NCBI GenBank assembly: GCA_014871385.1
Contig: CM026426.1
Span: 105,931,281 to 105,995,280 of the forward strand
DNA: 64,000 nucleotides
From: Ceratodon purpureus
Taxonomy: Eukaryota > Streptophyta > Bryopsida > Pseudoditrichales > Ditrichaceae
Direction: 5' to 3'
Below are positions 27,122-62,640 of the stretch, piece after piece. The notes under the pieces were generated by a model, which saw only the letters and a list, made by a program, of their open reading frames with translations, did not search any database and had not been told where the DNA came from. A program made the translations under genes and the position numbers. Positions within the stretch are counted from its first letter, which is position 1, and every line of letters begins with the position of its first letter.

Positions 27122-27569
27122 CTACTGCGCATGGCTGTCCCGGTTGCGCTTCACCGGCTTGCCTCCGCGTCCTCGTCCTTCTCCTGCGTCCCTGATAACC
27201 GCTCGCGCCCTAAACTTCTCCTGTAGCCCAAATTGCGATGAAGGTTTCGTATTGGAAGCCTTGTCGACCCTCGCCACACCTTGAGTACCCCGGCCTCGCC
27301 CCGTAGTCATCTTCCTCGGGCCCAAAAACACAGCACCGTACTCGCGTGGAGCCACCGTCTGGACACCCGGGGAAGGACACAACAAATTCCGAAGGCGGCT
27401 TGGCTTGGCTTGACCCGTCCCTTGCTGACTGCTGAGCTTCTCATTTAGGGAATCCTCCGGATGAGCCTGTCCCCCCTTCTTCCGTGCAGTTGCATCCATT
27501 TCTTCGGATTCCAGTTTCGACATTTCACTCTGTGATACTCCCGCGTCCGTAGGCATTGTGCCTTCCTTA

Positions 27570-27834
27570 GAGCATCCCCAGTAAGGCCTGAACCGTAAAC
27601 CTGTAATCGGAAAGATGTAGAAAGACGTGAATTGCGGTTCAGGTCAAGCCTGTATTCGAGCTTGTAAGTCTGTAATTTACAGGTCGAAACCTCATTTTGG
27701 AAGGTTTTTTGGGGCAAAACCTGTAAATCTGTAAACGGTTTTGGAATGTTTTGCTTCGGAAAGGCACTCAGGTTTGGGAGAACGACGTTCTCATAATTAC
27801 AGGCTTACAGGTTTACAGCTTATTGGGGATGCTC
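27570..27834 (+). mobile_element. MITE copy 1 (Tourist/PIF-Harbinger-like)
   Basis: 265-bp element with terminal inverted repeats gagcatccccagtaag and cttattggggatgctc, flanked on both sides by TTA, the 3-bp duplication usual for PIF/Harbinger. It encodes nothing. Confidence 0.85.
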
Positions 27835-27846
27835 TTAGTTTCCTCA

Positions 27847-28111
27847 GAGCATCCCCAGTAAGCTGTAAACCTGTAAGCCTGTAATTATGAGAACGTCGTT
27901 CTCCCAAACCTGAGTGCCTTTCCGAAGCAAAACATTCCAAAACCGTTTACAGATTTACAGGTTTTGCCCCAAAAAACCTTCCAAAATGAGGTTTCGACCT
28001 GTAAATTACAGACTTACAAGCTCGAATACAGGCTTGACCTGAACCGCAATTCACGTCTTTCTACATCTTTCCGATTACAGGTTTACGGTTCAGGCCTTAC
28101 TGGGGATGCTC
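27847..28111 (-). mobile_element. MITE copy 2, inverted relative to copy 1
   Basis: 265 bp, the reverse complement of copy 1 with one difference seen (an A-C-TGGGG versus A-T-TGGGG at one terminus). It is flanked by TCA on both sides. The 12-bp gap to copy 1 includes the target duplications. Confidence 0.85.
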
Positions 28112-28515
28112 TCAGTCATTTGTATGTCCGGGAGTACATTGTCCTTCAGCAATGCTCGGAAGCTCAGATCGTCTTCAACCTCCGCAAATTCCGGCAAGGT
28201 CTCCGGGACTACAGCTATGTCTACCGGGGAGCCACCACATGTATCCAGTGTCTCGACGGACGGATGCGCCTGACTCAAACAGACTACCTCGTTGATGAAA
28301 ACAGTGCTGTCGTCAATGGATTTGGTTGATAGGGCCGGACCTCTCACAGGGCTTCCGGACGTCGCCACTGATGGTGACTTGCGAGAGGCTAGCGGCTCCG
28401 GCCACCCTGGTGGGGCTTGTCCCGACATTCCGATGCCCGGCTCTAATTGTTGAGGCGTCTTCCAAATCACGGACGCAGGAGTCCTGGCCTGCTCCGAGGA
28501 TGCAGGAGTCCTCAC

Positions 28516-30566
28516 CTGTCCGGATGATGGCGTCCCTGCGCTCTCCTATCTCTATGACGCAGGAGTTTTAGAACTAGACTTCGCATGAACTGCGAAGAAC
28601 ACAATTTAACTACGATATCCACAGCCATTACTGTTCTTCATTCGTCAATGGAGAAAAACATGTTCCGCCCTTCAGCATCCCCTAATTTCGGCCTCGTCTT
28701 GCACACAGTCAAATTGCAGTGCTTTCGAAGTGGGTCATGAAGCTGAAACTCCAAAGTGAAGTGACAAGGGAAAGTGACGAGGCACAGTGCATTCACAGTG
28801 CTTCCACAATTACCAGGTAAGGGTTACCAGCGGAAATGAAGTCAAGCAGTGCATTCCCAGTGATTGCACACCTACGGTTGAAGCAATTTGCGGACATTTA
28901 CGCAACGCAGTGAATGTGACTCAAGAGCAAGCGGAAATCGGCATCAATAGTGACCAGCGGAAACTAAGTGCCACACCGCCTTGGCAGTGAATCCAAAGGT
29001 ATCTTGAAGTCCAGCGTGGCCATGATCCCTGTTACAATGATTAAACTCGCATGCAAAGCGGTACCACCGACGCCAACAGTGCAAAGTGACAAAGTGGTCT
29101 GAAAAGGTGACAGACCTGGTTACATTTCACTGGAAGCTGCCTCCTCAGTAAACTGAAAGTAAGGTCAGAATTACCCCAGCTTCAAGAATAGCCTTCCCAA
29201 AGCATCTAACGGACATCGAAGCGATAGTGTAATTGCCATTCCACGGAATGCGAGAAAGTGAAAACAAAGCAAGCAGGGGTTCTGAAGCTCACTCTAACCA
29301 TCTCGTGAAGTCCCCAAAGTGAAACAGCTACCTAACGTCCCTGTAAACTTGAGTCCAAAGTCGTGACCATCACTGAATCCAATGAAATACAAGTGGAAGT
29401 ACAGAATACGCAACGGACTTAGAAAACTTAAGGGAGAGACGTTTCAAACAGTATTCAGTACAACACTGAATAAAAAAGCTACCAGCCCCCATTGCGAACT
29501 TCATAGATCCTACGCAGTGCTTCATAGTGTCCCCGGGTGGAAGTATGCCAGACCAATGTACTTTTTGAGTCACAATACAATATACATTGAAGGCATGAAT
29601 TTGTACTTATAATTACCTGTACTCAGAAGCTTTTTCTTCGGATTTTGTTTTGTTTTTCCAAATAGTACATATGTAGAGATCTCCTGTACATTATTGAATC
29701 AGCTAGAAAAGCAAGTTAAGTGTGTTCAATTTGTACTATTGTGCACTAGTACAAAAAAGTCACACAGTGCTTGTATATGACAAAGTACACAATTCTTTAA
29801 CATCAAAGGCTCTAATTCTGTTTTCGTTTTTTGCAAAGGAGATAAGAAGGAATAGCCTATTGGAATCTATCCTTGATTTTACAAGTACATAGTGAATTTG
29901 GTCTGTTCATGGAAGTAAATGCTGGCTTCAGCTGCAACGGAATACAAAGTGGAAAATTAAGATTTTTTGTAATCGAAGGCATGGGGAAAGTTCGTATGTG
30001 AGCGGAGAGCGGAGAGCAGAGAATGGAGAGCAGAGAATTGACAGTTAGCCAAATTTTGAAAAGTGAAGTAGACCCTATAACCGTGGAAAAATACTAAAAA
30101 AAGGCATGATTTTGTTACTTTTTTATGAAAAGGGTATAATACCGTGGAATTCAGGGTTATCTCTAATAAGAATTTTTTACATTTGTTTTCAGAGGTACAA
30201 ATTAGGGCTGATGTCATGATGACGTCATGCATACAGTCCTTTAGATTTGGTCCCTTATCGGATCTAGATACGAGTATTCCAGCATCATGTTCTTAAATTA
30301 CATCAGTAAATTTTGAATAGATAATATAGATAATTCTGGAAAAAAGAAATGCAAAAGAAGCAAAAATAAATGGTCTTAAAACTTCGTGGAATAATTCAGA
30401 GTTCGTGTACAATAATGGAGGCTGCTGAAACCAAGATGTATTCCCAGTCAGAGTGCTTGTCTTGGTTGAAGAATTCTCTGTCTTTAGATAAGACCATTTC
30501 TAGCTTAAGAGTCAAGGAACGATCTATATAAACCTTAGCAGACGTCCTTGACGTTGTATTAGGTCA
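28516..30566. other. No supported gene
   Basis: AT-rich to the right of 29.6 kb. Between 28.7 and 29.5 kb words such as aagtga and agtgcatt recur without a fixed period. No coding frame or RNA gene was recognised. Confidence 0.35.
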
Positions 30567-30881
30567 ATGATTTTTGTAGTACTTAACCTTGTACTTGCTA
30601 GGGAGTTGTTTGAAGGTATGGGCGATTCATTTGAGGTCGTTGCCTGTGAAACGATTTTACAGGATTTGCTTAACCCCTAATCAGCCATCACCAAATTTTC
30701 CCAAAACTTTCCAAAATTTGTCATTTCTAATGCAACTCATAATTTTAAATTTTAAATAGTGATTTCAAAATTTCAACCGTAGGATCTTCAAAAAAAGTCT
30801 TTCAGGAATACACCAAAAAAAAAATTAGCACTTTTCACTGTACGGATGGAAATACTTTTCACTATAGCATTCGAAGTTCAG

Positions 30882-30908
30882 TTTTTTTTTTTTTTTTTTT
30901 TTTTTTTT
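30882..30908. repeat. T homopolymer, 27 nt
   Basis: Uninterrupted T run about 200 bp inside the left end of the piggyBac element. Confidence 0.9.
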
Positions 30909-31229
30909 CTGTATTGCCCGAGTATATTAGCTTACTTTGACTACTTGTGAATTGAAATTTTACCACTACATAAGTTGGTGGTTTTTGAAATTTAAGAAGA
31001 TACCCTTTAGAGGTACACGTGTACAAAATTTGAAATGTAGAAAATAAAGACAACATGTCCGAAACAAGTTTGCAAAGGAAGTAGGGGTAAAATGCCATCA
31101 AATGCTTAGTAGAACTTGGGATTTTATTGCCTTCAAAATTATCCAAACCAAGCGGTGATAGTATTACTATTTATGTTACATACTTGTTTCTCAAAAAAAA
31201 AATTAAAAAAATAAATACTATGGAGAGAT

Positions 31230-31690
31230 CTAGATTTTGAAGGACCATGGGAATTTTGGAGGATGGGCAGGGGATACAGGCTTGGGAGGCCAATTCCCAG
31301 GCGTCCCCAGCGGCTCCATGCATCCAAGCTACCCTGACAGGACTTCAGGTTCTGCCATGCGGAGTCCTCCCCCTCCCCTCGCCCCCCCCCCCCCCCCCCA
31401 CCCTCCCCGCCCCCCCCCCCCCCCCCCCCACCCTCCCCGCCCTCCCCAACCCCCAGCCCGGGAAGCCCCCGCCCACTGTTGCAGTTGCTCCCCGCTCCAT
31501 CTCCCCCTGTGGGCCTTCCGCGGGCCCTCACTGCCCCGGGACCTCTAAGTCGCCGTGGTCCTCCCCCTCGCTCCTCCCGGAAAAACCCTGTTCACCTTCG
31601 CTGCAATGCCCACCTGGCGGGGCCATGCTTCCCCACCCCTTGCACCCCTTCCTTGCCTCTGTTCTGGCCACCGTTATCAGTGACTGTTTC
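31230..31690. other. GC-rich block with long C-runs
   Basis: A sharply GC-rich island in AT-rich DNA, with C-runs at about 31384-31398 and 31411-31428 separated by ACCCTCCCCG. Long proline-rich frames on the plus strand and glycine-rich frames on the minus strand follow from this composition. They are probably not genes. The block may be an insertion in the piggyBac arm. Confidence 0.6.
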
Positions 31691-31701
31691 TTTGTTTGTT
31701 T

Positions 31702-31702
<1 letters not shown>

Positions 31703-31762
<60 letters not shown>
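31703..31762. repeat. T homopolymer, 60 nt
   Basis: Sixty T on the plus strand, preceded by tttgtttgttt. On the minus strand this is an A-run about 380 bp after the transposase stop. Confidence 0.9.
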
Positions 31763-32142
31763 CTTGTTTTTTTTACCTTCTTTTTAAAATTTAAAAATAA
31801 AATAAAATTTAAATATGTTTTAAAATATCTTTAATTTCTTAATTTTCAGAATTTTTTCACATTGTCTTTTCTTATGCAACTGCATTTGATTTCCAATTCG
31901 AAGAAGATGAATAACATAATAGCACCTCCAAACATTTATATACAATCTTTTGGGAAGCAATATCTCTCTACAAGAATTTGATGTGTAGAATTTTTGAAAT
32001 GAACATTTTCACTCTACTTGTTTTTTTTCTAAATATTTTCTAGAATAGATAGAAAATTAGACAACTACAACAAAGAAATGAAGGAGGGACAAAAAATTAA
32101 ACCTACTTAGTTATAGAAAGTCAAATACAAAGAAGAATAGTT

Positions 32143-34018
32143 TTATTCCGAACTTACATTTTGGTGGCGTTGTCGGTGAAGTCCATCATGATATTTTTGA
32201 AAACATGAGTCCGGTCCTTGGAAACACATAAACTTATTCTCACAAGAAGGACAATAGTAATGAGGTCTTTTACCGTTTCTCTCTTTAGACTTATTGCATA
32301 CCACACAAGGGTTTCTGTTCTTCGAATGTACCGGGTAGCAATATCTGTGTCTTGGTCTTGGTGAAGTATAGTCATCTACTTGCCGTTGTCTCCAATTTCG
32401 AAGTAATGCCTCACATAACTTGGTTCTAAATTGGAGATGGCTCATTGGTTTCCGAACCGGCCTTGAAATCTTGCATTTGTCTAAATAGATCAAAAACATG
32501 TTCACAACCGTCATATCAAGCAAAAAAAAGAATACTCGATGCCACCATTTATGTGACCGATTTTGAGTACAATATGATGCACGGAGTTGGTCCGCGACAT
32601 CCACCCCCCGCATGTGTGTCGTATACTCCAAATGCATAGGCGATGTCGGAATAGCCTCCCTAATGGCTCCATTTCAACGTGGGACGGTTTGCACATGTAA
32701 ACCGGGAGATATAGTCGGTTGTGCATGAGTAGATAAGAGCAAAACTGGTTTCTTATCTTTCCATACAACGGAAGCCATAGACCTAGACTCATGCATCCTC
32801 CACTCCACCCAACCTTGTTCTTCTTTCTTATATGCCTTTGTATTTCTCAACACAAGAGGCACACCTATTCGATTAGAGCGCATTGTCCCTGTTGCATAGA
32901 TGGACCTTAAAAGCAAATCTCTAAATAAGGCCACGCTAGTAAAAAAGTTGTCCATAGCAATGACATGGCCCTTTCCTTGAATTGCAATTGCCAAATCCAA
33001 TACAACATTATGAGCTAATTTCGGTTCTCCCCTTGCAACCTGTTGCTCATCCCTTACTACTTGACTTTTGCCACAATAAATGAAGAAGTTCCACACATAT
33101 TTCGATTCCAAGCATGCCAAGCACCACACTTTTATGCCCCATTTTTGCGGTTTTTGAAGCATATATTGTCTCAATGGGCAATATGATCCTTTGTACCATA
33201 TCATCATTTCATCGATGGTGCAAAATTTGCCTAAGTTCCATAGCTTCTTACAATTTTCCTGCATGCTCTCTATCAACCATCTTATTTGTCCCAACTTGTC
33301 ATATCCAGGTAAATCTCTCTCAGGTACGTAGGTAGCGGGGTTCGTGATGTGTAAACATCTTGTCAAAATTTTGAAACGAGTGCGTGTCATAACTTTGGAA
33401 ATTGTCAAACAATGATAAATAGAACCCCGTTCATGCCAATAAGACTCAATGTGCGGTTGACGCTTCCTGCCCATATACAATCATATCGCCATAAATGCCT
33501 TCAACTCTGGCACAGTGAAATCCACCCACCCTGCACCCCCCATTGTATTTCCATCATTGTCTTCTACCGTCGCATAACAATTAGTTTCTCTAACAATATC
33601 CCGTAGAATGAGATGTGTCCAAAAAATATCAAACAATTGCAACATAGTGAAAATAGCCCTCTGAAATATATTTGAACTTGAAACACCTTCATATTCCCTA
33701 GGCTTTGGATGATAAGTGAAATGGGTCTTGTTCCACGTAGAATCGCGAAACATATACTTTATGTTGTTGCCATCTCCCACTTCCCCTCCCTCACCTTCTT
33801 CATCACTCAATAATTCATCTCTTTCAAAATCCCCACTTTCACTGTCCAATGTAGGTAGTGCCCAATCATCAAACCGCCTTCTCCTTGAATACTCAATATT
33901 TTCACGCTGAGAAGGCCTTCTAATTTGCATTGGGCGATTTCCATTTCTGCCTGAGCCTGTGTTGTAAAACTCCTCTCCGTCATTATCCCCTCCAGCAAAG
34001 TCCAAGGGAATTTGATCA
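32143..34018 (-). pseudogene. piggyBac transposase, catalytic and C-terminal part
   Basis: One frame runs 34018 to 32143 with two in-frame TGA codons (after KAFMAI near 33483, and after VQTVPR near 32676; the second fits CGA to TGA). The DDE_Tnp_1_7 core has all three catalytic aspartates: TIDEMMIWYKGSYCPLRQ (first), VIAMDNFFTSVALF (second) and MRGVDVADQLRASY (third). A C-terminal cysteine-rich zinc domain follows (CVVCNKS, CPSCENKFMC, then CFQKYH). The enzyme excises and inserts the element at TTAA without leaving a footprint. Apart from the two stops the sequence is well preserved, so loss of function is recent. Confidence 0.92.
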
Positions 34019-34229
34019 TCAGTCTATGCCCCCCCAAACCCTCCAATATCCCCGTTCCCTCCCCAATCAACCCCCCATCCCTCCCTGGCTCCCTCCACGT
34101 CCCCTGCTCTCTCATTAAAATCCCCGATCCCAACCCCGTTCCCTGTCCCCTCCCCGTTCCCCCCATTGTCACTACCCTCCCCGCTCCCAAACCTTCCTGC
34201 CCCGTCCACTTCCCCCGCTTGCTCACCTC

Positions 34230-34340
34230 CCTCCCCGATTCCAACCCTCCCTGTCCCCTCCCCGATCCCAACCCTCCCTGTCCCCTCCCCGATCCCAACC
34301 CTCCCTGTCCCCTCCCCGATCCCAATCCGCCCTGTACCCG
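34230..34340. repeat. Minisatellite, 27-bp unit, four copies
   Basis: Tandem units of cctccccgatcccaaccctc followed by cctgtcc, starting near 34230. On the minus strand they read as a VGIGEGTGR peptide repeat in frame with the transposase, so they may lie in an expanded coding linker or an intron. Confidence 0.85.
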
Positions 34341-34439
34341 CCCCGTTCCCAGCTCTCTCGACCCCTTCCCCGCTCTCAGCCTTCCTCGTGCCCAGCTCCC
34401 TCGACGTCCCCCCCGCTCCCCGCCCCGATCCCCATAACC

Positions 34440-34745
34440 CCCTTTTGGTTTTTTTTGTATTCACCCCGAAGGACCTCCCGCCGCGATATCGCCCGCGGCG
34501 GTTGGCCTCCCGGGTTTGTGGGGGCAACAAACCCGCCACGGCAAAAAGCCCGCGGGGTTCGAGAACCCGGGCACGGGTGAGATTTTCTTCTGGCTAACGG
34601 GCAGCCCAGTGAGCCACGTCACAGCGGGGTTTCGAACCCGCCACCACCCGGAGCCGTTACGACGAGCCTCCCAGGCCTACTGATCCAAAGACACGAAGCC
34701 CACAGCAGGTGTCCTCCTGTCATAACTTAAACATTCATTTTCACA
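34440..34745 (-). mobile_element. tRNA-derived SINE-like insertion
   Basis: On the minus strand an A box (TGGATCAGTAGG) is followed 37 nt later by a perfect B box (GGTTCGAAACC), the spacing of a pol III internal promoter. A second pair-like set (TGGCTCACTGGG, then GGGTTCTCGAACCCC) follows. The unit ends in an A-rich tail (aatacaaaaaaaacc) near 34440. No target duplication was confirmed. It sits inside the piggyBac transposase gene. Confidence 0.55.
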
Positions 34746-34782
34746 ACCTGCCCGATTAGAATGTTGCTCAACGGGAGTTATG

Positions 34783-34911
34783 AAGGGTGAGCACCCCGCA
34801 GGGGGGGCTCACGCGATGGGAGCACCCTACGCCTCGGGCCGGGCTTCGCCCTTGCCCTACGGCTCGGGATGCTCCCATCGCGTGAGCCCCCCCTGCGGGG
34901 GGCTCACCCTT
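34783..34911. repeat. GC-rich foldback element, 129 bp
   Basis: The left arm begins aagggtgagcaccccgcagg and the right arm ends with its complement, ggggggctcaccctt. The outer 42 bp of each arm pair with one mismatch, and the loop is also partly self-complementary. No target duplication was recognised. Confidence 0.85.
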
Positions 34912-35135
34912 TACAATACACCCCAGCCTGGACCGCTCCATTCTCCAACGGCTCTCGGATCACCTGATCTGGCAGCACCCTCATCGCCTCCCGCCCAGCC
35001 TGGACCACGAGCTACAGTGCCCCCTTCCCCCGCCCATGCATGCAGAGATCCAGAAGTCTCTCCCGCATGCCCTGTATCCATCTGAACCAGGCCGTCTTCT
35101 TGCAGTAAGCCTTCCCCTCCTTCCCCATATGCAAG

Positions 35136-35692
35136 TCCTCCCTTACAGACATGTTTTTTTTTCCTCTTCTTTTTTGCATTGTATTTGTCGACGTTGTAGT
35201 TAGACTCTTCAGGCCACCATAGCTCCTCCAAACTCCTATCCTCCTCAAACCTATAATCCCCTTCATCAAAGCTATCTTCAGTGTGTTCTTCACAAGAACT
35301 CTCCCTCCCTTCTTCTCCATAGATCTCATCACTATCCAAAAATAGTGGGTTAGTTTCAGCAATTCGTGCTTGTAGTAAAGCATAAATGTCTCCTTGAGTA
35401 TGTGGAGATTCTGTAGGAAGAGGTGTAGGAAGATTTTGAGTTTGAGTTGAAGAAGGATTTGGAGGTGGAGGAGATGGTGATGAAGGAGGAGGGGGGTTGG
35501 CACTTGTTGAAGCTTGTTGAGATTGAATGCGTGAGCTGCGTCGAGGAGCTTCTAAGAAGCATATCTACAGATTTCAACAACATGTGTAAGTGGAAATCCG
35601 AAACTGTAAGTACACTACAAATGTGAAATAGAAAAACCGACTGTAAGTCTCACCTCTTTCTCCCTCCATGGTGTAGCTCTCCTTCGTGGCAT
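35136..35692 (-). CDS. piggyBac transposase 5' exons
   Basis: Exon 1 (35692-35654) starts MPRRRATPWREKE and ends at GAG|GTGAG. Exon 2 starts at 35564 after ctgtag, keeps phase (ICFLEAPRRSSRIQ...), runs through a Ser/Pro-rich stretch and an acidic segment (SFDEGDYRFEED) and a Lys-rich stretch (KKKRKKKH), with a possible donor near 35136. An acidic, disordered N-terminus ahead of the catalytic core is usual for piggyBac transposases. The join to the core exon at about 34018 is not resolved. The DNA between holds a minisatellite, a SINE-like unit and a foldback. Confidence 0.6.
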
Positions 35693-35699
35693 GTTGATG

Positions 35700-36818
35700 C
35701 AATAGAGATAGCAAGAACTTCTCAAGATGGCAAGTGTGTTTGTAGAAGTGGAGTTATTTCAGTTCAAGTTATATGCCTATGCACGTATTGAGGAAGTCAA
35801 GTGTAGAAGTTGTTGGTCAGAATATTTGTTTCATATTTAGATACATCACCTTGTTCATGGGCATCTACAGAAATAGGGAAGGTTGAAAAATGCTTCATGA
35901 ATCTGACAAGAGACTCTCTGGAAGTAGTCGTTGTTCTCATTTTCATTTTATCAGTGACTATTTCTATGTGACAAAGAGGTTTGTGAAGCACACAGGAGGA
36001 GCTATCTATCACTCCTGCTGCATTGTGATTTTTCAGTTGACAAAAGTTTTCTGGGCTCTCACTGCATCTGTGAAGACTGATTTGGTCACTGAGGACTTAT
36101 TCAGACACTGAACACTGATTCAGTCAAGTGGAAATTTATTAAAAATAATTCGATCTGTGAGGCCACCTTTGCTAGATCTCATAGTCACCATGTCCAGGCA
36201 GTAATTGTCCCCAACTCTCGGTTCACAGTTTCTGCTGCATTCTCATCGCACTATAAGCGTCTCCCGCCCCCTATCACCGTCACAGCCCCTCATTGTCTCC
36301 TTTCATCGTGACAGACCGTCATCGCATTCTGTCGGGACCGGGACCGGGTCCCTTGGGGCAGTGTTCATCGGGGAGGGAGCCTCCGCCTCTTCTCGGGATT
36401 CTCCCCGGCCCTTGCTCACGGCCCACCTACCCCCCCCCCAATAGTATCCAAAGTCCCCAGTTCAACCCACCAGGACTTGGCCTTTGTAGGAAGTCCACTG
36501 TAGAACTCTTCAAAGTCCACTGTGAATACATGTGCCCCACCTTCACTGACCCCAGCCCCTAATAAAAAGTCAAACTCCCTACATGATTCTCATTGGAGGA
36601 TCACTCTGCCCCAATTGCCCCAGGAGTAGCCTTTTTTGCTTAGAGAAGCATAACTTTTACTCCCTTTGCCTTAAAAAAAATAAAAAAAATATCCCCAAAA
36701 AAGTCTCTTAAATATTTATCTCCAATAAAAATTTCAAAAAATTTCAATCCAATTTGACTTTTTAGGAACCTGCCCAAATTTCAAAAACACCCATTCCAGG
36801 ACTTTGGCCGTTTAGGGG
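35700..36818. other. Right arm of piggyBac, non-coding
   Basis: This is the sequence between the transposase ATG and the right terminus. It holds the presumed promoter region. No separate gene is seen. A pyrimidine-rich patch lies at 36200-36440. Confidence 0.5.
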
Positions 36819-36879
36819 TTAAGTGGATGGCGGATGGGCCTAACCCCTGGGATCATATAGGTAGTAGTGCAACGGAGGG

Positions 36880-37140
36880 TTGGACTCCTCCTCCGACAGT
36901 CTTGAATACGCATGCCTTCGGCTAGCGAGGTGGGATTACTTTTTGTACGAGGGTCGCCATTGGAGTCCAAAGGACGAATACGAAGTTAATCGGTTCAACA
37001 TCAACTCGAGTGTTTTTAGGAGTTCTTGGACACTTGCAAATCCAATTTACAACGAGAGGTTAGAGACAGCGTCCCTTGGAGAACTTAGTTGCGTTGAGTT
37101 AGATCAGTTGAGGACACTGCTATGGGCCAATGGGAATTAG
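36880..37140 (+). CDS. Hypothetical exon to the right of piggyBac
   Basis: 86-codon frame without its own ATG (TTG start). The residues (DYFLYEGRHWSPKDEYEVNR, then ASLGELSCVELDQLRTLLW) look like real protein but match no family I know. It overlaps the small ORF cut by piggyBac in another frame, so at least one of the two is not coding. Confidence 0.35.
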   Translation: MDSSSDSLEYACLRLARWDYFLYEGRHWSPKDEYEVNRFNINSSVFRSSWTLANPIYNERLETASLGELSCVELDQLRTLLWANGN

Positions 37141-45189: not shown

Positions 45190-48020
45190 CGGGTTTTTTT
45201 TTTCGGGATATGCGCCCACTCTTCCTCGTCGTCATAACGGGAGCACAAGCGTTCTGGATGGCTAAAGATATAGGTGTATCTCCTGTTGGATGCCCGCTAA
45301 AACATGCCGCTTCCGAAACCTGTACATGCAAAAATCAATTTATGATATTTTATTCTACTAAAAATGTTATTCACATGCACCTTCAACATGGTAACTCTGT
45401 GAGCAGATGAAATTCAAAACACATTAACAGAGAAATGTGATTGCCATGTCGGCAAAAAAGGATTACGGATAATGTTTCAAAAGATGCTCACCCCGGCATT
45501 GTCATCAGGAAGTGGTATATTATCTTCACAGTTGCTGTGCTTCTGTCTCTTATCTTGGGTACAGATTACAGGCTCTTCTTCGAGAACATCCACTGAAAAA
45601 ACCTTGGTAACACCTCCACCGGATTCCGACCGTTCACGCATAATTCTGATCTGCCTCATGAGACCGTCGAGTACCGTCTTCACCTCCGGAGTGTCACACT
45701 CCTTAATACTCCTCAGTTCCTGCATCTGCTTAAGTAACACTTTACCTAGGGGATGGTTTCTGGCAAAAATCACGTCGACGTCAGTGGACATCTGAAACGC
45801 ATCATCCATGCTTCTGGATTGACTACGGTCACTGAGAACCGTAGTTTGCTCTTCAGATGTATTCATCTCAAAGTTCTCCTGTGCTGCAGGTAAACTTCCA
45901 CAAGTATTATGAGAATGCCTCTTATGAGGAGCCTCAGAGACGCCTTCCTTACCGCCCTCAGCTGCAGAATCTACTTTACGGGCTCTACACCTCCTATCTC
46001 CCTTCTTGTCTCGAATGACCTCTTCTTGGACCTCCTCCGGGTCTGGCGTTCTTCCAAGGCGCTCCCGCAATTTCTCTGTAACACCTGCAACACCTATTGG
46101 ACCAGTACGTCCCTTTGTCTTCCTGCAGGCGTTCGCGTAACGCATCTGGTCGGATTTTGCTTTAAACTTCTCGGTGCCTGCCATTGTCACTAATCTTGAC
46201 CAAATTTCCTGGCTTACCCATTGAGGACGGTCTTCTTCTGCCTCGATCGCCTTGACCAGTTCATGCCGGTATGAACTTAGTGCTGACCCTATACGGGCAC
46301 GCAACCAACTTGAATTAACATTGTCTGAGAAGTCTATGTCCTCGTTCAGCCTCTGAATCAAAGTCTTCATGAGGTGGAAAGGCTGGTGGCGTATGTCGAT
46401 GTATGAAGGATCAAGGCCCCGTACTACTTTCCCCAGAATCTCATTAAAATCCCCTATGCCGTAACCGTATGGTCTACCTTCTTGATTAACGTGTACATAA
46501 TACCGTTTTTTCCCTGCCTCCACTCTTCGATTGGCTGTGTCATCTCGAGTCCTCTGTTTTTCACGTCTATTATTTCTGTCAATGCTTTCCTTTTTTAGAC
46601 TAAAAGGGTGAATTGAACAAGTACCATGACCATTATCTCCACTTCCACTAACGTCTCGGCGCTGTTCAGTTCTGAGCCTATCATTGGGAGACGTCAGTGA
46701 GGGGAGTCTCAATTCAAAGTTGCGCCCAGATGGTGTGGACAACTGCAGGCCTTGACTCTGTTGAAGGTCCGGAAATCTGTGCCTATCATAAGTATCCTCT
46801 TCGCCATGACTGTAGGATTCTGGTGACAGTCGGGAAGGTCCAGATCCGGTTTTACGCACGTCATCCCTCCTGCCCCGATCTCTCTTACTATGCTTTTTGT
46901 TCCTTCGCTCTCGGTCACACTCCGATGAGGACCTTGAATTCGAACGTGATGACGACCCGTAACCACGACGCCTGCTGCTACGGTGAGTTCTCCTCCTTCT
47001 TCGATCGCTCTGTAGTAAATACGGAAATATAAAAAAGCAAAATTAAAGTAATTCTTCGGAATTCAATTCAAATTGCAGACGATGTTGCCTCTTTTTTTTC
47101 CTTTTAATTCACATGGAATTTATTACTATTAATCGCCTAATTTCTGCCTACGCAAACTACACCTACAGGAACAATTTAGAGTCCACTCACAATGGGTGTT
47201 TGTATCGGGGACTTGAGAGTGTACATATGAAGGCGGCAGATGCATTATACATGACGAAAACTTACCTCCTCGGAGTCCGTTGTAGTGTACCTCCTACGAT
47301 GACGAGACCTCTTATGCAATGGGGATCGGTCTCTGCCGTCATATTTTGACCGTCTGTACTCATTAGCATCAGTGCCCGTGCGCACATGATTATACGTATT
47401 CTTCGGCATCCTCCACTGTTCACCATCATCACCATCGGGTTCCCAATTTGGAGGTTGAGAGAAATTCCCCGCATGTTGTTTGTCATTACCCCCCTTTCTG
47501 TCGTGATCAGTAGGTGTAACTGCAGGTGTATTCGATGTCACATATGTTTCGGTTTCTTCATTTCCTGCTGGAGCTGTATATTTCACGCAAAGTATAATAA
47601 TTACCATTCCTTACTACCTAATCAACATAAGCTACGTAAATATATAACATCTTCACAATATATTGCTGGAAAAAAATTAATGACATAGGAGGTCACGTAG
47701 TAGTAAATAATCGTTACATACTAAATGACTGAAAACGTTTTCTTACATGGATCGCAGGTCAATGGTGTCTGAGATAATCCAGCCACAGGTGTCGAAGGTG
47801 CTCGCGAATTAGATGGTGACTTCGCCAGGGGAATGTTGTAGAACTCCTCTACCACTGCATTTGCGGCATCAGGACCCGGGGCGAATTTCGCTCTAGGGCC
47901 GGGAGTGATTCGCATAACCCACTCATCGTCTTCTGGAACACCGTCGGAGACTGATTTTTTCTTCTTCGGATTCCACAACTCCGGTCCTCTCTTCACCTTT
48001 GTGCTCGCCCGCGGTGGCAT
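45190..48020 (-). CDS. TNP1-like (plant transposase_24) protein, four exons
   Basis: Exons 48020-47747, 47573-47266, 47009-45492 and 45319-45190 have consensus GT-AG borders and keep phase throughout. The start is MPPRASTKVKRGPELWNPKK. Exon 3 begins with an Arg/Ser-rich basic stretch (SDRRRRRTHRSSRRRG). It then holds the transposase_24 pattern: YYVHVNQEGRPYGYG early, then WVSQEIWSRLV and FKAKSDQMRYANACRKTKGR, and a helix LRERLGRTPDPEEV. Exon 4 ends in a basic RKSGRISRKKKP. TNP1/TnpA-type proteins bind subterminal repeats of CACTA elements and help the transposase. The gene runs opposite to TNP2, unlike En/Spm. No break is visible, so it may be intact. Confidence 0.8.
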
Positions 48021-49927: not shown

Positions 49928-50595
49928 TGTTACAGGGCAACATCCACGACAACCAAGGAAGACAAGGAGCAGTGAAGACTAGCAGAAGAAGTAGCAGTTG
50001 CCGCTAGGAAGCCACAGTCCGACCTAGAATTTAGGATAACCCAAGTATAACAAGGTAGCTAGGAGGCCAGAACTCACACTCTTGATTTTGCTGGTTAGAG
50101 TCGATGCGCAGTAGAGATAGCAAGGGCCGTGTGTGGCCCAGACTTGGATACTTGAAGTACTTGCACTCTCTATTGTAATGGAAACACTCTCCCTTTACGC
50201 TTACTGTTTGCCTACTGTCTGACTCTGATTGTTCAACCCTAACCCTCTAAACCCTTCGTCTTCTCTGTGGTCGTTGCTCTCCCCTACCTCTTGCACTCCT
50301 CGGTCCCTTGGCTCCTGCCCACAGTGTCATGGAAGTCTTCTAGCCCTTGCAACCTCGCTTTCCAGTAGAAACTCAAGTAGCCACCGCCCCCATCTCTCCC
50401 CCTTCCCTGGCCTACCTCGGCTAGCTTACGCTGAGTATATTAACGGCCCGAGTCCCTGCACCAGGACAGTTGTTCCTGGTGACCGTGTTCAATTAACCCC
50501 TAAACCCGTGGACTCCTTGAGAACCTTGCCCCCCCTTACCTTACAAACCCCCTGACCTCCCTGCCTAGTATTTCCATCTCTGACCCCAGCTAACA
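49928..50595 (+). repeat. 5' LTR, 668 bp
   Basis: Starts TGTTACAGGG and ends CCCAGCTAACA (TG...CA). As read, it is identical to 58402-59069. The following ttttggcgaccatgctgggg is a primer-binding site of the type seen in Tat/Ogre-like elements (tggcga...tgctgggga). Confidence 0.95.
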
Positions 50596-50657
50596 TTTTG
50601 GCGACCATGCTGGGGATGGAATACTAAGGTGTCCTAAAACCCCTAAACTGATACACC

Positions 50658-53600
50658 ATGCCTCCACGAAAACTCCCCCTGGTGGTGACAAATGAAGGAG
50701 AGGAAGCTGCCAACCAAGATGACCAAGAAACCACCAAGGAATTCTTGATATGGATGAGACAGCAAATGGCCGACCTTGTGGCCAAGAATGAGGCCACTAA
50801 TGCCAGACTGGAAACGCTTAGTGCACAGTATCAAACTCTACAAGAAAGCAGAAACCAGGAGACTATCAATACCACACCACAAGCTTCCCAAGCTCTCCCT
50901 GAAGCACTCAGATCAGCTACTATTCCTCAGGAAAATCACACTGCTGCCACGCTACCTAGTCAAAATGATACCCACAAACAGGCCAAGCTTCCCAAGATAT
51001 CCTACCCAGTGTTTGATGAATCTGGCGACCCAGATTGGCACGTCAGAAGATTCAAGGTTATCGCTCGCACAAATGGCGTCACCAATACTGCCGATTTACA
51101 AAACATCTTTGGTACAACCCTCCAAGGCAACCACATCAATTGGTATATTGACTTTGAGACTGAACATTCCAATGCCACTTGGGACGAAATGGAGCAAAGT
51201 TTTCTACACAAATTCAGAAAACTCAAGACCAGCTCGGAAGTATTGAGAGCCCTGGGAAGTATTGCACAAGAGAAAAGCGAACCAGTAGACAAATTTTATG
51301 ACCGATTCAAACAACTAGCAGACAAATTAAACCAACGTCCCGAGGAGGACTATCTTTGTGAATGGTTCAAAAAGGGATTGTTACCATGGATACAACAAGG
51401 AATAGTAATCCGAGGAGTCAAGACCTTGCAGGATATCGTTACTGCTGCTAATGATATTAGCAGGGAACTAGGGGCATTAAATAAAATCCAAGCTCCTTTG
51501 CTTCCCTTGCCCACTGTTCGCCCAGAAATTCGACCCACCTTGGTACCATGCGCTAACTGTGGAAAAATTCATGGTGGCCGATGCTGGTACGCAAACAATC
51601 CCATTCGCCCTGAAGACAACCGGCGCTCTCGTCCTACCACGGCGGCCGTGTATCCCGAGGAAATTAACGTCGACGCTTTTCAACCTGGCAGGAACGATGC
51701 CTGCTGGGAGTGTGGATCCACAACCCACAGACGCAGAGACTGCCCTCAACTACATCAGAGATGGTCACAGTACCGTTCCGGGAACCAAGGTAACCAAGAT
51801 AACTCCAAACCTCCAGGGAATCCTAGGCGAGGAGGTGTCACACTAACAGAAGTACACGGAACTGAAACCTCTGTGTCTACCATAAGCACTGCAGTAGTAA
51901 CCACGCGATCTAAGGGAGCACCGGATGACCATGTAGTAGAACCAAGGAAACCATTCCCAGAAAATCACTGGGATCGCCTTCATAGAATCCGCCAAGACTT
52001 ACAAGCAGGATTAGAAAGCACCAGCCAGGACGCTCCTATCCAACAAATTTTAGAAGATACTAACGTAACCATCACTCTGTCCAAACTATTACAGTTGAGT
52101 CCAGAGCTTCAAAAATACTTACAACAAGCCTCGCTACCTAAAGGAACGGAAGATCCTGAAGTCATTGAAGTCAACGCCACAACGTTAGATCCTGATGCTG
52201 CAGTCATTCATTTACAACTCGGAAACCATGAATTGACTAACGTATTAGTTGATGGAGGATCCGGTGTTAATGTCATGAGCAACCATCTTAGAAAACATTT
52301 AGGCTTACCTTCTCCCAAGCTCGCACAGTTTATACTCAGGATGGCAAATGATGCCCCGGTGACACCCCTGGGAATACTCTCCACGGTTGCTATTACTACC
52401 CATGGAATTTCCACACCAGCTACGTTTGTAGTTATTGATATGCCTGATAGTAGTAACTTCCCAGTAATCCTTGGCCGACCTTGGTTACGTGACATGAATG
52501 CGATCCATGACTGGTCACGAAATCAGATCCGCATCCAGCGCCAAGGAAAAACAGTTATCATTCCCGTGGATAGCTGTATAACCAGGGCTAAGGCTAACCA
52601 GATCCGCCACAAAGCTGGAACCAATTGGGTGCAAGGGCTCTCACCGAAACAGGAAGCCATGGTATTCCAGGCCAACCCGGATCTAATTCCCTTAGCAGAA
52701 ATTCATCTAGCTAGCATGATAACCGACCAGGATAAACTAGACATACCCTTGCATTTTTCCCAAGAAATCCAAGAAACAGTAACTGTACAAGCTATGCCAG
52801 CTACTCAAGCCTTGCAGCAAGAGGTCATCACAGGATGGACCCATGGAGCCAAGGATAGAATAGAATTAGTAAATCTTGGCACTTCCGAAAAGCCTAAGTT
52901 CATCAAGATCAACGCAGATGCACCAAATCATGTGAAAAGAGCAGCAATCGACCTATTTCATGAATACCAAGACATTTTCGCATGGGGACATGAGGATCTC
53001 AAAGGAATCCCAAGCACACTAGCAGAACACACGATCGACCTTGTACCTAACGCCACCCCTGTACAACAACGTAGGTATCGCATGAATCCAAATTATGCAG
53101 TAAGGGTCAAGGCCGAACTTGATAAATTACTCCAAGCGAAATTCATCTCACCTGTAGATGCTGCTCCCTGGTTATCTCCCATGGTTATCATTCCTAAGAA
53201 AAATGGCACACTTCGAATCTGTGTTGATTTCCGAAAGTTAAACGCGGCCACCAAGAAGGACCATTACCCCTTGCCTTACATGGAAGAAATCATTGATGAA
53301 GTAGCCGGCCATGAAATGTATTCTTTTTTAGATTGTTTTTCCGGATACTACCAAGTAGCCATGGCAGAACAAGACAAAAATAAAACAGCTTTCTCAACTG
53401 AATGGGGGCCTTATCAGTTTGAAAGAATGCCATTTGGAGCTAAAAACGCCCCTATGACTTTTCAACGAGTCATGGAGTTGATCTTTAGACCCTATTTAAA
53501 AAGATTCTTCAGAATCTATTTAGACGATGGTACCGTGTATGGACAAATAAAGGACCATGTTACTCACCTTCGACAGATTTTCCAAGCCTGCAGGACTAAT

Positions 53601-56600
53601 GGGGTCAGTTTAAATGCCGAGAAGTGTATGTTCTTATTTTTTGCCGGGGTAATCTTGGGTTACATAGTTTGTAAGTATGGAAAACTGCCTGATCCTGAGA
53701 AAATCAAGGACATCATGGAAATCACGCCTCCCACGGATCAGAAAGGTGTTCAAAGGCTTTTAGGTCTGTCACAGTTCAATAGGATATATATCGAGAAACT
53801 GGCCCATATCACTGCACCCATAACTGCACTTAACCATGCCAAATACAAGTACCCCCAAGATTGGACCCCTGCAGCCCAGTCCGCCTTGGAAAAAATTAAG
53901 GTTGCCTATTCTAATGCACCAATCTTGATCGCCCCTGACTGGACCAAGCCTTTCCATGTACACACGGATGCATCTAATATTGCAGTAGGGGTTATGTTAG
54001 CCCAGAATCTGAACGGCAAATATGATCAGCCCGTTGCCTATGCTAGTCGACTATTAAATCAAGCAGAAAGGAATTATTCCACAACGGAAAGAGAAGCCTT
54101 AGCTATGATTTACGCCGTTAAAAAATTCCGTCACTACTTACTAGGCAACAAGTTCCGTTTCATGGTCGATCATCACAGCTTATCGTACCTGGTCAATCAG
54201 CCCTTGGTCACTGGCCGTGTAGCAAGGTGGATCATGATACTCCTAGAGTACGATTTCGAAGTAGTGTATGTGCCAGGGAAAAGACACATAGTCGCAGACT
54301 ACTTGTCCAGGGACTCCAAGGCTACCGAGGAGGGCATCGATGACTCCTTTAACGAGCCATACCTTCAAGCCGCTAGTCTGGACGTGGACATTCCTACAGA
54401 CTGGCGAGGTGACATTATACGATACTTAACCACAGGAATAACCCCTGTCAATTTATCAGGAACCCGACGCGTTACTTTTGTCCGGCATACATTACCTTAC
54501 ACCATGGTCCAGGGACAGTTGTACCGCCGAGGCATTGATCACGAAATCCGTCTTTGCGTTCCCACGGGGCAAGAACAAAATCTCATGTCCATCCTCCATG
54601 ACGGCCCAGCAGGCGGCCACCAAGGACCCGATACAACAATTAAAAAAATCCTGGCTGCTCGTTATTGGTGGCCTACACTGCACAAAGACGTCCATGAGTA
54701 TGTTAAAAACTGCCATGCTTGCCAAGTTTCCACAACAAATTTCCAGTACCAAGGTCGAGTGCCCCTGAAATCCATACCACCCCTCGGCCCTTTCCAACGA
54801 TGGGGTTTAGACTTTGTTGGCCCAATTAAACCGGCCACAAAACAGGGTTACAAATACATTCTAGTTGCCACGGATTATACCACCAAGTGGGCCGAAGCCA
54901 AACCATTACGTACCAACACTGCCATGGTAACCGCGACCTTTATCTACGAAAACATTATCACTCGATTTGGTTGCCCCTTGGAAATCATATCAGACCAAGG
55001 CTCCCATTTTGTTAATGCAGTCATTGAAGACTTAATGGAAAATCATGTCATAAAACATCGAACAAGTACAGTCTATTATCCTCAAGGAAACGGCCAAGCA
55101 GAATCTACTAATAAAACCTTGATCAACATGTTACGCAGGTTCATCCATGCCAATCAGTCCGATTGGGGGGACTGTCTCCCAGCAGCCTTGTGGGCCTATA
55201 GGGTGGCAATCAAGACTGCCACTCAGGTTAGTCCCTTTGAAATGGTTTATGGCACTCAACCTCTTTTGCCCACGGAGTATATCGCGCCCACGTTTCAAAC
55301 CTTGCAGCCCAAGGATTACAGCCCTCATCGCGTCCTTGCTGCCCGGATTCAAGATATTCATGCACTGGAAGAAGTTCGGGCATCCGCCATCAAAAATATA
55401 CTTCACAAACAAGAATTAAGCGCCCGGTATTTTCAAGCTTCCCAGCCTCCACGCCTATTTCAAAAAGGTGACCAGGTTTTATGGTGCCCAAGGGATCCCA
55501 AGATACGCAAAACCAAATTCGAGTCCATATGGTACGGGCCATACAGGGTTCAATTAGTATTACCTAATAATACTGTGCTCTTGGTTAATAGTGAGAATTT
55601 TGACACACATGCAACCATTGTTAACTCAACAAAATTAAAACATTATCATTCTGAAAATGCTACAACCACCCCTCAGCTCAGCTTAGGAGAAATTTATAAA
55701 ACCTTGGCGACCGAGGCCCAAAATACGACAGATTCAGAAGAAAGCAATACTACAGAGCCGCCACAACAAGACATGGACACCATGGCAGTCCATGTAAGCT
55801 TGGTCCAGATCAGCTTCTTGGACACCCAGGACGCCATGGAACATCCCATCAATGGGACAGCCTCAGCACTCCCTAACTCCCGCATCATAGGGACTCAGCC
55901 GCCACGAACCCCGCTAGCCCATCATCATACCCAAGGTTACCCAGCCATCAGCCTCAGCAGGCCATGGAGATCCTCCCTTGTCAATTCAAGGCCGCCAAGG
56001 CCAACTCGTCTCTCAGATCCCTGGGTCCAGAGGACTGCCTTCTTCTCCTTCCCCCTGCAGTTAGTCCCAACCAGTGCACTCTCCTTTCCCTGTTGCTACA
56101 GCCCGTCACTCCGCATTGCTGCTCCTCCCCTGCACACTCCACGTTTAGTCCCCGAGTTAGTCACCATGGAGCGTAGGAAGAAGGTCACGCCCCCATTTCA
56201 TGTGCCCCGAATGATTTCGGAATGGAAACGCCAGCCCGACCTCATCTGGAACACAGGGGTAGGATTAGCGCGCTACTGCACATTGGTCGAGCCCAAGGTC
56301 AACACCAAACATTGCACAGAGTTTGTTACCTCGATGCGGACTCGGAGCGAGACAGAGCAGTTTCCTTCAGGAGTAGTCGAAGGAATCGAGGTCCAGTTCT
56401 CCAGCCGCTATTTGCACAAATTCTTCGGCTGGGATGGCTTGGGCGTCACGGCGTGGAGCGAGACCTGTGGACATCCGAAGCCAGACATAGCATCTCGCGT
56501 GGGCAGCCTCCAGCTGAAGGATGATGGCAGGTACGACGTGTTTGCCTTGGGAAATCATATGCAGGATCCTTGGTTTTCTCGTATGCGTGGAGTCTTGAGT

Positions 56601-58358
56601 CAGGTCTACTTTCAAAACAATTGCAATGGCATTCTGCCGGAGCAATTGGGTCTCCTGCTCATGGCGGACCAAGGCGCCAAGGTCAACTGGGGTCTTCTGG
56701 TCGAAGAGAACTTCCGAATCCAGCTCCGAGGTCACCGGCAGCGTGCAGATTACAGCAGCCCGATTGGGCCCTTCCTCACCTCCTACATCGCGAATTACCT
56801 GGCCTTCTACCGTCGACACAACCGAGGCCCTCTCATGGGTACCTTCCTCGATGTCCAGCGTGACCTTGCAGCAGCAGCGACTCGGGATCCAGAGCTGCCC
56901 GGCCCCAGCAAGCGTCCCCGGAATACAGAGTCCACCAAGGAGGCAGAGACATCCACAACCATGGGCCCATGCGCCACCAAGTTCGCAGCACAGAGTGCTG
57001 CTTTTTCGGATTGCGTGGGGGAGATGCTCCAGTGGATCAACACCACAGAGCAGGCGCAGACGGCTATTCTACAAGAGCACAAGGGCATTGAAGACAAGTA
57101 CAAACGCAAGTTCGCCGCAGCTGTCCAAGGAATCCGAGACCAGGCACAGCGTACCCTGTCACACACACACACAGAGTATCGTCAGCAGCTAGAGGAGAAG
57201 GAGCAGACATTGACAAACCTTCGACACCAGGTGGCGAACCTGGAATTGGAACTTAGAGCCACACAGGATCATGTCGACGTTTTGGCCAAGGAGAAAGCAA
57301 ACGCCATGGAACGCGCCCAAGGACTGGAACAGCAGAGCCAGGAGTATCTAGCCAGATGCAAAGCCCTAACAGCACACAACGACACGCTAAAACAAGGTCA
57401 GCATTCGCAGGAGACCGAGGATAACATGCACCTCCAGGAGGAGAAAATCGCAATGGAACAATGCATGCAAGACTTTGAAGCTAACAAGGTGGGATGGGTG
57501 CATAATGCCGCCAACCTGATTGCATCTAATGCATACAAATGGTTGCTGGACCATCCCTCTACCTCAGCCGAACCACCCAAGGAATTCATGGATTACTGCA
57601 TCGACAATGCACTGGCTACGCTGGAATTGGAACATTCGGAAAATGCTTGGGAGAACATGGAGTTAGAAGATATGGAGCTGGACAATGAAGATATGGAAGC
57701 CCTGTCCCTGCTCCCGCAGCCAGCTACGGACCAGCCAGCCATGGAACCCGCACCAACCAGTCCAGGGCACCAAGTCCAAGAAAATCTGCAGCCGCCCAGC
57801 CCGGCCATGGTCAACCTTGCCGACCAAGCAGAACGCGTGGATATTCCGGAGCACTTGACCGATCAGGAGGATACTCCACAACCTTCACCACGCCTGCCAG
57901 CGGCACCACAAGCTGCACCAAGCCAAGTCAACCCCACGGTACCCCCGAAACCCAAGTCCTTTAGAACTCACAAAGAAGCATTAAGAAAAATAGAAGAGGA
58001 ATTTGACTTAGAAGAGCAGAACAGTGATGAAGAAGAGGCCGAGGAAGAGCTAGCGATTGCCATCCAGGAAGTCACACAATACTTTGAAGCTAACCCTGAT
58101 CTCATCGCCCTCTATAGTAATCCCGAGGCTAGTCAGGTGCAATGCCCCGCATGCAATAAGATTCTAGGAAAAACCGTGTATGATGTCTATCAACATGCCA
58201 TGACGTCCCGGACTACGCATAACCTGATACATAGAGGTGTTGGTGCAGCCATAGCCGCAATTTATGGGCATCAAGCACCCCCAAGACGCCGCGCCCAGCT
58301 ACCAAGGGAAGAGACCAGACCTGATAGAAGACCCGCCCACCGACGCACGCGTGGCTGA
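50658..58358 (+). CDS. Gag-Pol polyprotein with extra C-terminal coiled-coil region
   Basis: A single frame of 2566 codons. Order, by approximate residue: gag capsid 100-280; zinc knuckle [14 protein letters not shown] near 348; aspartic protease [12 protein letters not shown] near 530; reverse transcriptase 800-980 with YLDDGTVYG near 955; RNase H from 1100 (HTDASN); integrase zinc region near 1310-1350 and catalytic core from 1385 (LDFVGPI). From about 1836 follows an unusual tail: a globular region ([20 protein letters not shown]) like the plant transposon protein domain found beside some LTR elements, a long coiled coil at about 2110-2280, acidic and Pro-rich linkers, and a CPACNK motif near 2497. 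Carrying this tail in the same frame as gag-pol is uncommon. Confidence 0.93.
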
Positions 58359-58401
58359 TCCGCAATCCGGGACGGATTGCAAGCTTCAAGGGAGGGCTAA
58401 A

Positions 58402-59069
58402 TGTTACAGGGCAACATCCACGACAACCAAGGAAGACAAGGAGCAGTGAAGACTAGCAGAAGAAGTAGCAGTTGCCGCTAGGAAGCCACAGTCCGACCTA
58501 GAATTTAGGATAACCCAAGTATAACAAGGTAGCTAGGAGGCCAGAACTCACACTCTTGATTTTGCTGGTTAGAGTCGATGCGCAGTAGAGATAGCAAGGG
58601 CCGTGTGTGGCCCAGACTTGGATACTTGAAGTACTTGCACTCTCTATTGTAATGGAAACACTCTCCCTTTACGCTTACTGTTTGCCTACTGTCTGACTCT
58701 GATTGTTCAACCCTAACCCTCTAAACCCTTCGTCTTCTCTGTGGTCGTTGCTCTCCCCTACCTCTTGCACTCCTCGGTCCCTTGGCTCCTGCCCACAGTG
58801 TCATGGAAGTCTTCTAGCCCTTGCAACCTCGCTTTCCAGTAGAAACTCAAGTAGCCACCGCCCCCATCTCTCCCCCTTCCCTGGCCTACCTCGGCTAGCT
58901 TACGCTGAGTATATTAACGGCCCGAGTCCCTGCACCAGGACAGTTGTTCCTGGTGACCGTGTTCAATTAACCCCTAAACCCGTGGACTCCTTGAGAACCT
59001 TGCCCCCCCTTACCTTACAAACCCCCTGACCTCCCTGCCTAGTATTTCCATCTCTGACCCCAGCTAACA
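58402..59069 (+). repeat. 3' LTR, 668 bp
   Basis: Same length and, as read, same sequence as 49928-50595. It is followed by the right target copy GGGGG at 59070-59074. Confidence 0.95.
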
Positions 59070-62107: not shown

Positions 62108-62640
62108 GTATGCTGTTTATCTATCTTAAATTGTTGATTTAAAAATATCCATTACCGAATGCTCTGTTCTGTACTTTAAATTATGCCATGCTAGTTTTTA
62201 GTGCTTCTAAATTAGCTTCATGTACGAGTTTACTTCATTATTTATGAGTTTTATTATGTTAGTCATGCTGAAACCAATAAATAGATTTGGAAATTGTAAC
62301 CGTGTCAGTTTAATAGGTTCATTTGTAGAATGAAGATGAGTTCCCCTCTTTTTTATATATGTCGAAATACACAATGCTCGCGGGTTATGTTACTGTTTGC
62401 TGAGGTATGCTGTTTATCTCTCTGAAGAAGTCATTTAAAAATATCCATTACCGAATGCTCTGTTCTGTACTTTAAATTATGCCATGCTGGTTTTTATTGC
62501 TTCTAAATTAGCTTCATGTACGAGTTTACTTCATTATTTATGAGTTTTATTATGTTAATTCTACTTCATTTACTTAAGAGCTAGAGAGCTTTGAGTGTGG
62601 ATACAATGTGTCACTAACATTTCTATGTTGTGTCGCAGCC
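62108..62640. repeat. Tandem duplication in the TNP2 intron
   Basis: The segment starting ggtatgctgtttatct at 62106 recurs at 62404, with about 160 bp of close similarity (aaaatatccattaccgaatg, catgtacgagtttacttcat). The offset is about 298 bp. The duplicated piece includes the splice donor. Confidence 0.8.

Follow-up and report, generated by a model that had tools for sequence, protein, structure and literature searches.

What is a piggyBac transposon doing in a moss? The piggyBac superfamily is best known from animals and fungi. A candidate member was located in a stretch of 64,000 nucleotides from Ceratodon purpureus, hereafter called the window, which spans positions 105931281-105995280 of contig C6. 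Sequence, phylogenetic, and structural analyses suggest, with a probability of about 0.95, that it is a piggyBac DNA transposon of the cut-and-paste kind, now dead, and most likely located on the moss U chromosome. Judged by the tested features, it is a piggyBac element. The surprise is the host and the scale, not the mechanism.

The assembly contains 362,488,568 bases in 151 contigs; the genome size of C. purpureus is given as about 360 Mb (PMC8000587). Contig C6 is 110,524,308 bp long, and the remaining large contigs of C1-C13 measure 16.5-29.0 Mb. The species has 12 autosomes, and its U and V assemblies are reported as 110.5 and 112.2 Mb (PMC9273592); the reference strain GG1 is described as female (PMC10856949). 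An RWP-RK gene is carried by the U chromosome (PMC8000587), and one of the nine RWP-RK matches in the assembly is on C6. C6 is most likely the U (female sex) chromosome.

Element structure and transposase gene

The initial annotation had placed a piggyBac element at 30674-36818, and these boundaries proved exact: the flanking TTAA and the termini were read again in the sequence. The 14-bp terminal inverted repeats (TIRs) begin with CCC and, read inward, are identical at 12 of 14 positions (CCCCTAATCAGCCA versus CCCCTAAACGGCCA). Three full-length relatives, L055, L056, and L057 (5,863, 5,875, and 5,439 bp, TTAA excluded), have TTAA and nearly the same 14-bp ends. The inverted ends match perfectly over 15 bp in both L055 and L057, over 14 bp in two short copies, and over only 7 bp in L056.

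For the empty-site search, the 299 bp left flank (ending in TTAA) was joined to the 300 bp right flank and searched against the assembly; 40 of 1,242 candidates were scored, giving 80 rows, of which two come from the window itself. Alignments that cross the junction (TTAA at 296-299) were obtained at 38 other places; they run from query position 1, 3 or 20 to 366-369, with 92-94% identity. C6 holds 25 of these uninterrupted copies, and other contigs hold the remaining 13. Among the 40 non-self rows touching the left flank, the remaining two stop short of the junction (at 244 and 70); the other rows are right-flank pieces. All six junctions that were read contain one TTAA. Given the uninterrupted copies and the single TTAA, the window copy is an insertion at a single TTAA of a repeat that is present elsewhere without it. 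In the window, this host repeat occupies 30375-30673 and 36823-37122, and at least 38 other copies exist, 25 of them on C6.

The transposase gene is on the minus strand (Table 1). Three minus-strand pieces matched Pfam PF13843 (DDE_Tnp_1_7) with E-values of 7.7e-8, 2.1e-53, and 0.01; the third match does not reach the curated cut-off. A tblastn search with L055 aligned 34365-32152 of the window copy in frame -3 with 68.7% identity. The intact relatives L055 and L057 have a short first exon, followed by one open frame of 1,050 and 1,003 residues, respectively (stop to stop). The window copy keeps the first exon of these relatives and a predicted GT-AG intron, after which the second exon would begin at 35564; the two exons would be joined by splicing. 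The domain order is an acidic and proline-rich N-terminus, a Gly-rich linker, the catalytic domain, and a Cys/His domain. All three catalytic aspartates named in the initial annotation were found, and the triad is kept in all 55 aligned sequences (53 from the moss and two transposases of solved structure).

Table 1. Features of the piggyBac element, numbered from the first letter of the window.
Feature	Position	Strand	Evidence
piggyBac element, 6,145 bp	30674..36818	-	TTAA, inverted ends, empty sites, same-ended relatives; transposase on minus strand
Left target-site TTAA	30670..30673	.	sequence; single TTAA in 6/6 empty sites read
Right target-site TTAA	36819..36822	.	sequence; single TTAA in 6/6 empty sites read
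Terminal inverted repeat CCCCTAATCAGCCA	30674..30687	+	downstream end of transposase gene
Terminal inverted repeat CCCCTAAACGGCCA	36805..36818	-	upstream end of transposase gene
Predicted exon 1, MPRRRATPWREKE	35654..35692	-	translation; MPRRG/MPRRR at equivalent place in L055, L056, L057
Predicted intron, 89 nt, GT-AG, phase 0	35565..35653	-	inference
N-terminal coding part, acidic and proline-rich	35040..35564	-	tblastn with L055: 35558-35040, frame -1, 59.9% identity
Nested repeat within coding region, ends approximate	34440..34920	.	genome copies; hairpin, 50-nt arms 34778-34827 / 34867-34916
Tandem repeat, Gly-rich linker region	34229..34372	.	
Linker end, catalytic part and C-terminal Cys/His domain, single frame with internal stops	32143..34365	-	tblastn, Pfam PF13843
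In-frame stop TAG	34024..34026	-	upstream of catalytic domain; comparison with L055
In-frame stop TGA	33481..33483	-	comparison with L055
In-frame stop TGA	32674..32676	-	comparison with L055
First catalytic Asp	33211..33213	-	D in 55/55 aligned sequences
Second catalytic Asp	32950..32952	-	D in 55/55 aligned sequences
Third catalytic Asp	32599..32601	-	D in 55/55 aligned sequences
C-terminal Cys/His-rich domain	32188..32307	-	Cys/His pattern in sequence

The predicted fold is in line with this assignment. A phmmer search with the intact relative L004 matched Trichoplusia ni piggyBac, PDB entry 6x67 (6.6e-29), and piggyBat 9c0f (5e-26); a profile of the alignment matched them at 1.1e-57 and 1.1e-62, respectively. 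The AlphaFold model of L004 was built from 19 aligned sequences and has a predicted local distance difference test score (pLDDT) of 80.1 and a predicted template modelling score (pTM) of 0.77. In the fold search with this model, eight matches had E <= 0.001; 6x67 (1.6e-28) and 9c0f (1.1e-25) were the best, and the Tn5 transposase was next. The predicted fold of L004 is RNase H-like, as in the solved piggyBac transposases. By analogy with known piggyBac biology, the product would be a DDD transposase some 1,000 residues long. It would start from one short first exon and comprise an acidic N-terminal region, a Gly-rich linker, a catalytic domain of the RNase H type, and a C-terminal Cys/His domain. 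Such a transposase would bind the CCCCTAAWCGGCCA ends, excise the element, and reinsert it at TTAA.

The coding region is decayed. Only two stops had been counted initially, which is correct for the catalytic domain but not for the whole frame, where a third stop, a frame change, and a nested repeat were found. The frame changes around the nested repeat, from -1 before it to -3 after it. This repeat has 144 candidates in the genome, and the best non-self copy among the 40 scored is 91% identical over query 5-481. The repeat is composite: its hairpin part (query 1 to about 173) is also found alone elsewhere in the genome, and its second part looks tRNA-like by eye. ARAGORN found no tRNA in the window, despite this appearance. 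C6 holds 18 of the 39 top-ranked non-self places.

Relatives and short elements in the moss genome

A six-frame search of the assembly with PF13843 was performed, in which 116 of 998 first-look candidates were scored; the counts are lower bounds. At least 116 piggyBac-type matches were found, all above the curated cut-off, of which 93 have no stop in the matched stretch and 23 have stops. They occupy all of the 13 large contigs, with one match on a small contig; the window copy is not among them. The additional copies with TTAA ends and the stop-free copies envisaged in the initial annotation are both present in this genome. Enrichment on the sex chromosome was considered and set aside: 19 of the 116 best matches are on C6, which holds 30.5% of the bases, fewer than expected by length. 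The binomial p of this deficit is 0.0008; the sample is biased toward the best-scored 116 of the 998 candidates, and no conclusion is drawn from it.

These counts bear on whether the element might be a contaminant or an assembly artefact from an animal or a fungus, the groups from which piggyBac is best known. A 2022 review of land-plant transposons, whose table does not list piggyBac, would also agree with such an origin (PMC9033089). Contamination, which the initial annotation had itself raised, is nevertheless exceedingly improbable, because scored copies are on all 13 large contigs and the window copy is inside a host repeat with uninterrupted copies on C6 and elsewhere. The location of a piggyBac element in plant-type DNA, as first described, is upheld.

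The relatives are diverse, and many have open frames. The transposase regions of 53 moss sequences were aligned with the two solved transposases. Duplicates (L009, L013, L014, L016, L055, L056, and L057), partial sequences (L028, L047, and L050-L053), and L031, which is too decayed (10 stops), were left out of the tree and of the Asp count. Single-linkage grouping at 60% amino-acid identity divides the 53 sequences into 11 clusters. In the maximum-likelihood tree, they form one clade with a support of 100 against three outside sequences. Among ten open copies from the lineage of the window element, the ratio of nonsynonymous to synonymous substitution rates (dN/dS) is 0.04-0.30 in 40 of 45 pairs. 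Four pairs are not computable, and one pair has a ratio of 0.62 (L018 on C10 and L019 on C9, 98.8% identical). The dS exceeds 1 in many pairs of this lineage.

The window copy and other copies differ in age. A DNA search with the catalytic region of the window copy gave 42 rows from the best 40 of 257 candidates. Among these, the closest full-length match (C6:80415391) shows 90% identity, and one fragment of 0.8 kb shows 93%; the rest are at most 84%. Between the window copy and its nearest copy, dS is 0.20 and dN/dS is 0.31, consistent with a copy that was once functional and later spent some time without constraint. In a different lineage, with copies on C1, C5, and C6, L079 is 99.1% identical to L081 over 4.4 kb, and 99.2% identical to L080 over 3.2 kb, with 93.8% over another 1.3 kb. 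The flanks of these three copies are unrelated, ending at TTAA at one located end. Across their catalytic regions, four compared copies of this lineage differ at 0-3 of 1,146 bases. Near-identical copies with unrelated flanks support recent transposition for these other copies. Recent activity, which the initial annotation had proposed for the window copy, applies to the genome but is not supported for the window copy, given the 90% identity of its nearest full-length copy, its three stops, and its nested insertion.

The same data bear on how the group came to be in the moss. Recent horizontal entry from one donor, followed by radiation, would agree with the recent activity seen in 99-100% identical copies on different chromosomes, and also with the single moss clade in the tree. 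The tree is a weak test of transfer because only three outside sequences are in it. The 53 sequences already fall into 11 clusters, and dS is above 1 in many pairs within the window element's own lineage; therefore, long residence or several entries are indicated, and one recent entry seems rather unlikely.

The ends of the element are also found on short elements. The exact motif TTAACCCCTAAWCGGCCA, which is TTAA followed by CCCCTAAWCGGCCA, occurs 473 times in the genome, and the reversed-pattern control occurs 0 times, so the motif greatly exceeds chance expectation. Of these places, the first 100, on C1 and C2, were listed for analysis. They include 33 facing pairs within 30 kb and 34 ends without such a partner. 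The spacing is 758-870 bp in 28 pairs, 5.9-6.8 kb in three, and 1.6 and 24 kb in two. Three short elements (L042, L043, and L046) are 859-869 bp long, have matching 14-bp ends with TTAA on both sides, and show 94-97% mutual identity. They align to the window element over 193-211 bp at its 36805..36818 end (83-85% identity) and over 19 bp at the other end; one of them has an additional 27-bp match. The short elements look like miniature inverted-repeat transposable elements (MITEs) of the window element's family. The listed places include at least 28 such elements with the shared ends, and they are presumably mobilised in trans by such transposases, because the ends and a subterminal stretch are shared. 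More TTAACCCCTAAA ends, which vary in sequence, are within about 1.5 kb of the short elements L044 and L046, which suggests several related MITE families.

Some observations weigh against reading the window element as a copy of a mobile piggyBac family. The copy in the window no longer functions. The initial annotation had taken the C-terminal zinc domain as identifying. It is visible as a Cys/His cluster; however, it scores under the Pfam cut-off for zf-Tnp_2 (24 bits), with 17.7 bits (E 0.0055) in L055 and 15.9 bits in L004, and no zf-Tnp_2 match was listed for L001. The link between the short elements and the transposase rests on shared ends, and most of the inner 650 bp or so of the short elements have no match to the window element.

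Domestication must also be weighed. The animal PGBD genes are domesticated host genes derived from piggyBac, and the moss copies might likewise be host genes and not mobile elements. The strong purifying selection on the open copies would be expected from such genes. However, the copies that were read keep their inverted ends and TTAA, some near-identical copies have different flanks, 23 of the 116 matches contain stops, and the ends are common to short elements. Domestication of the group is very unlikely, and mobile piggyBac elements are the preferred explanation. A single domesticated member among the 116 is possible.

Other features of the window

A Ty3/Gypsy-type retrotransposon was found at 49928-59069. 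Its two 668-bp long terminal repeats (LTRs; 49928-50595 and 58402-59069) are 100% identical, so it is a very recent insertion. It contains one open frame of 2,568 residues, which beyond the integrase matched nothing in Pfam at E 0.01. The sequence TTAACCCCTAAA is present in both LTRs by coincidence. A near-perfect hairpin is located at 27566-28115, with two 273-nt arms that are 99% complementary and 4 nt apart. A tandem array at 628-1874 has seven copies with a start-to-start spacing of 142-184 bp, six of which show 62-90% identity to the reference copy.

At 60626-62137 and 45477-47042, there are a TNP2-type transposase (PF02992, 4.1e-60) and a Transposase_24 match slightly under the cut-off. 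These genes could belong to CACTA or to its relative Lanisha; the authors who coined that name are also among those of the Ceratodon genome preprint. The Lanisha superfamily was also considered as the identity of the piggyBac-type element and was rejected; a 2025 paper places Lanisha with the EnSpm/CACTA-type transposases.

Land plants and known piggyBac systems

Plant TIR elements were assigned to six superfamilies in the 2022 review, and the word piggyBac is not in its table, which names Tc1-Mariner, hAT, Sola, MuDR-Foldback, PIF-Harbinger, and CACTA (PMC9033089). A 2008 grapevine paper gave five superfamilies (PMC2528002). Two reports argue against novelty. A 2023 abstract mentions in passing the isolation of piggyBac from insects, fungi, and plants (PMC10813416), and a fern genome paper lists short PiggyBac fragments (PMC6890710). 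Among the top open-access literature matches, no paper was recognised as describing a moss piggyBac; Repbase and the species' genome paper were outside the scope of this search, and an existing database entry for the element is possible. The initial view that the superfamily is rare in land plants agrees with the table of the review, but not with the abstract that mentions plants, nor with the abundance of the group in this genome.

There is about an even chance that piggyBac is a seventh TIR superfamily resident in land plants, maintained in mosses as a diverse clade with at least 11 groups in this genome, which was active until very recently on autosomes and the sex chromosome, has given rise to TTAA-type MITEs of its own, and was overlooked in surveys. 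If a standing and active moss piggyBac is real, the list of land-plant transposon types is incomplete, and repeat annotation of bryophytes may miss a class. The near-identical copies on autosomes and the U chromosome would then offer a natural system for studying cut-and-paste transposition specific to TTAA in a haploid plant whose sex chromosomes are large, and would permit a test of descent against horizontal transfer as the origin of piggyBac in plants.

Related sequences from other sources were compared. In the fern Ceratopteris richardii, a repeat table gives 1,230 PiggyBac fragments covering 122,417 bp; these fragments average about 100 bp, and no ends or transposase are described with the table (PMC6890710). 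Two scans of viral contigs, one querying a single protein and the other an alignment of 12 sequences, gave no relative. Three loci were found in prokaryote genome contigs, L088 (JAMOUE010000120.1), L089, and L090, in two bacterial metagenome-assembled genomes (MAGs). A Deltaproteobacteria MAG has one locus, on a contig of 3,084 bp, and a Pseudomonadales MAG has two. The three loci are possibly eukaryotic DNA binned with bacteria. L088 was used as an outgroup of the tree and as a row of the folding alignment.

Teratorn, a fusion of piggyBac and a herpesvirus in fish, has a piggyBac-type transposase like the moss element. However, Teratorn is described as 180 kb long with viral genes, and none were seen in the 6-kb moss element. 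The piggyBat transposase (9c0f, a chain of 578 residues) has the same catalytic core and falls outside the moss clade in the tree. The T. ni piggyBac targets TTAA, has ends beginning with CCC, and carries a C-terminal Cys-rich domain; it also has internal inverted repeats near its ends. The moss open frames have about 1,000 residues, whereas the 6x67 chain has 594, and L004 shares 22% identity with it in the fold alignment. The moss element differs from T. ni piggyBac in its long acidic and Gly-rich N-terminal part, one predicted intron, and the CCCCTAAWCGGCCA ends. These two elements share the DDD catalytic core, the TTAA target, the CCC ends, and possibly the Cys-rich C-terminal domain.

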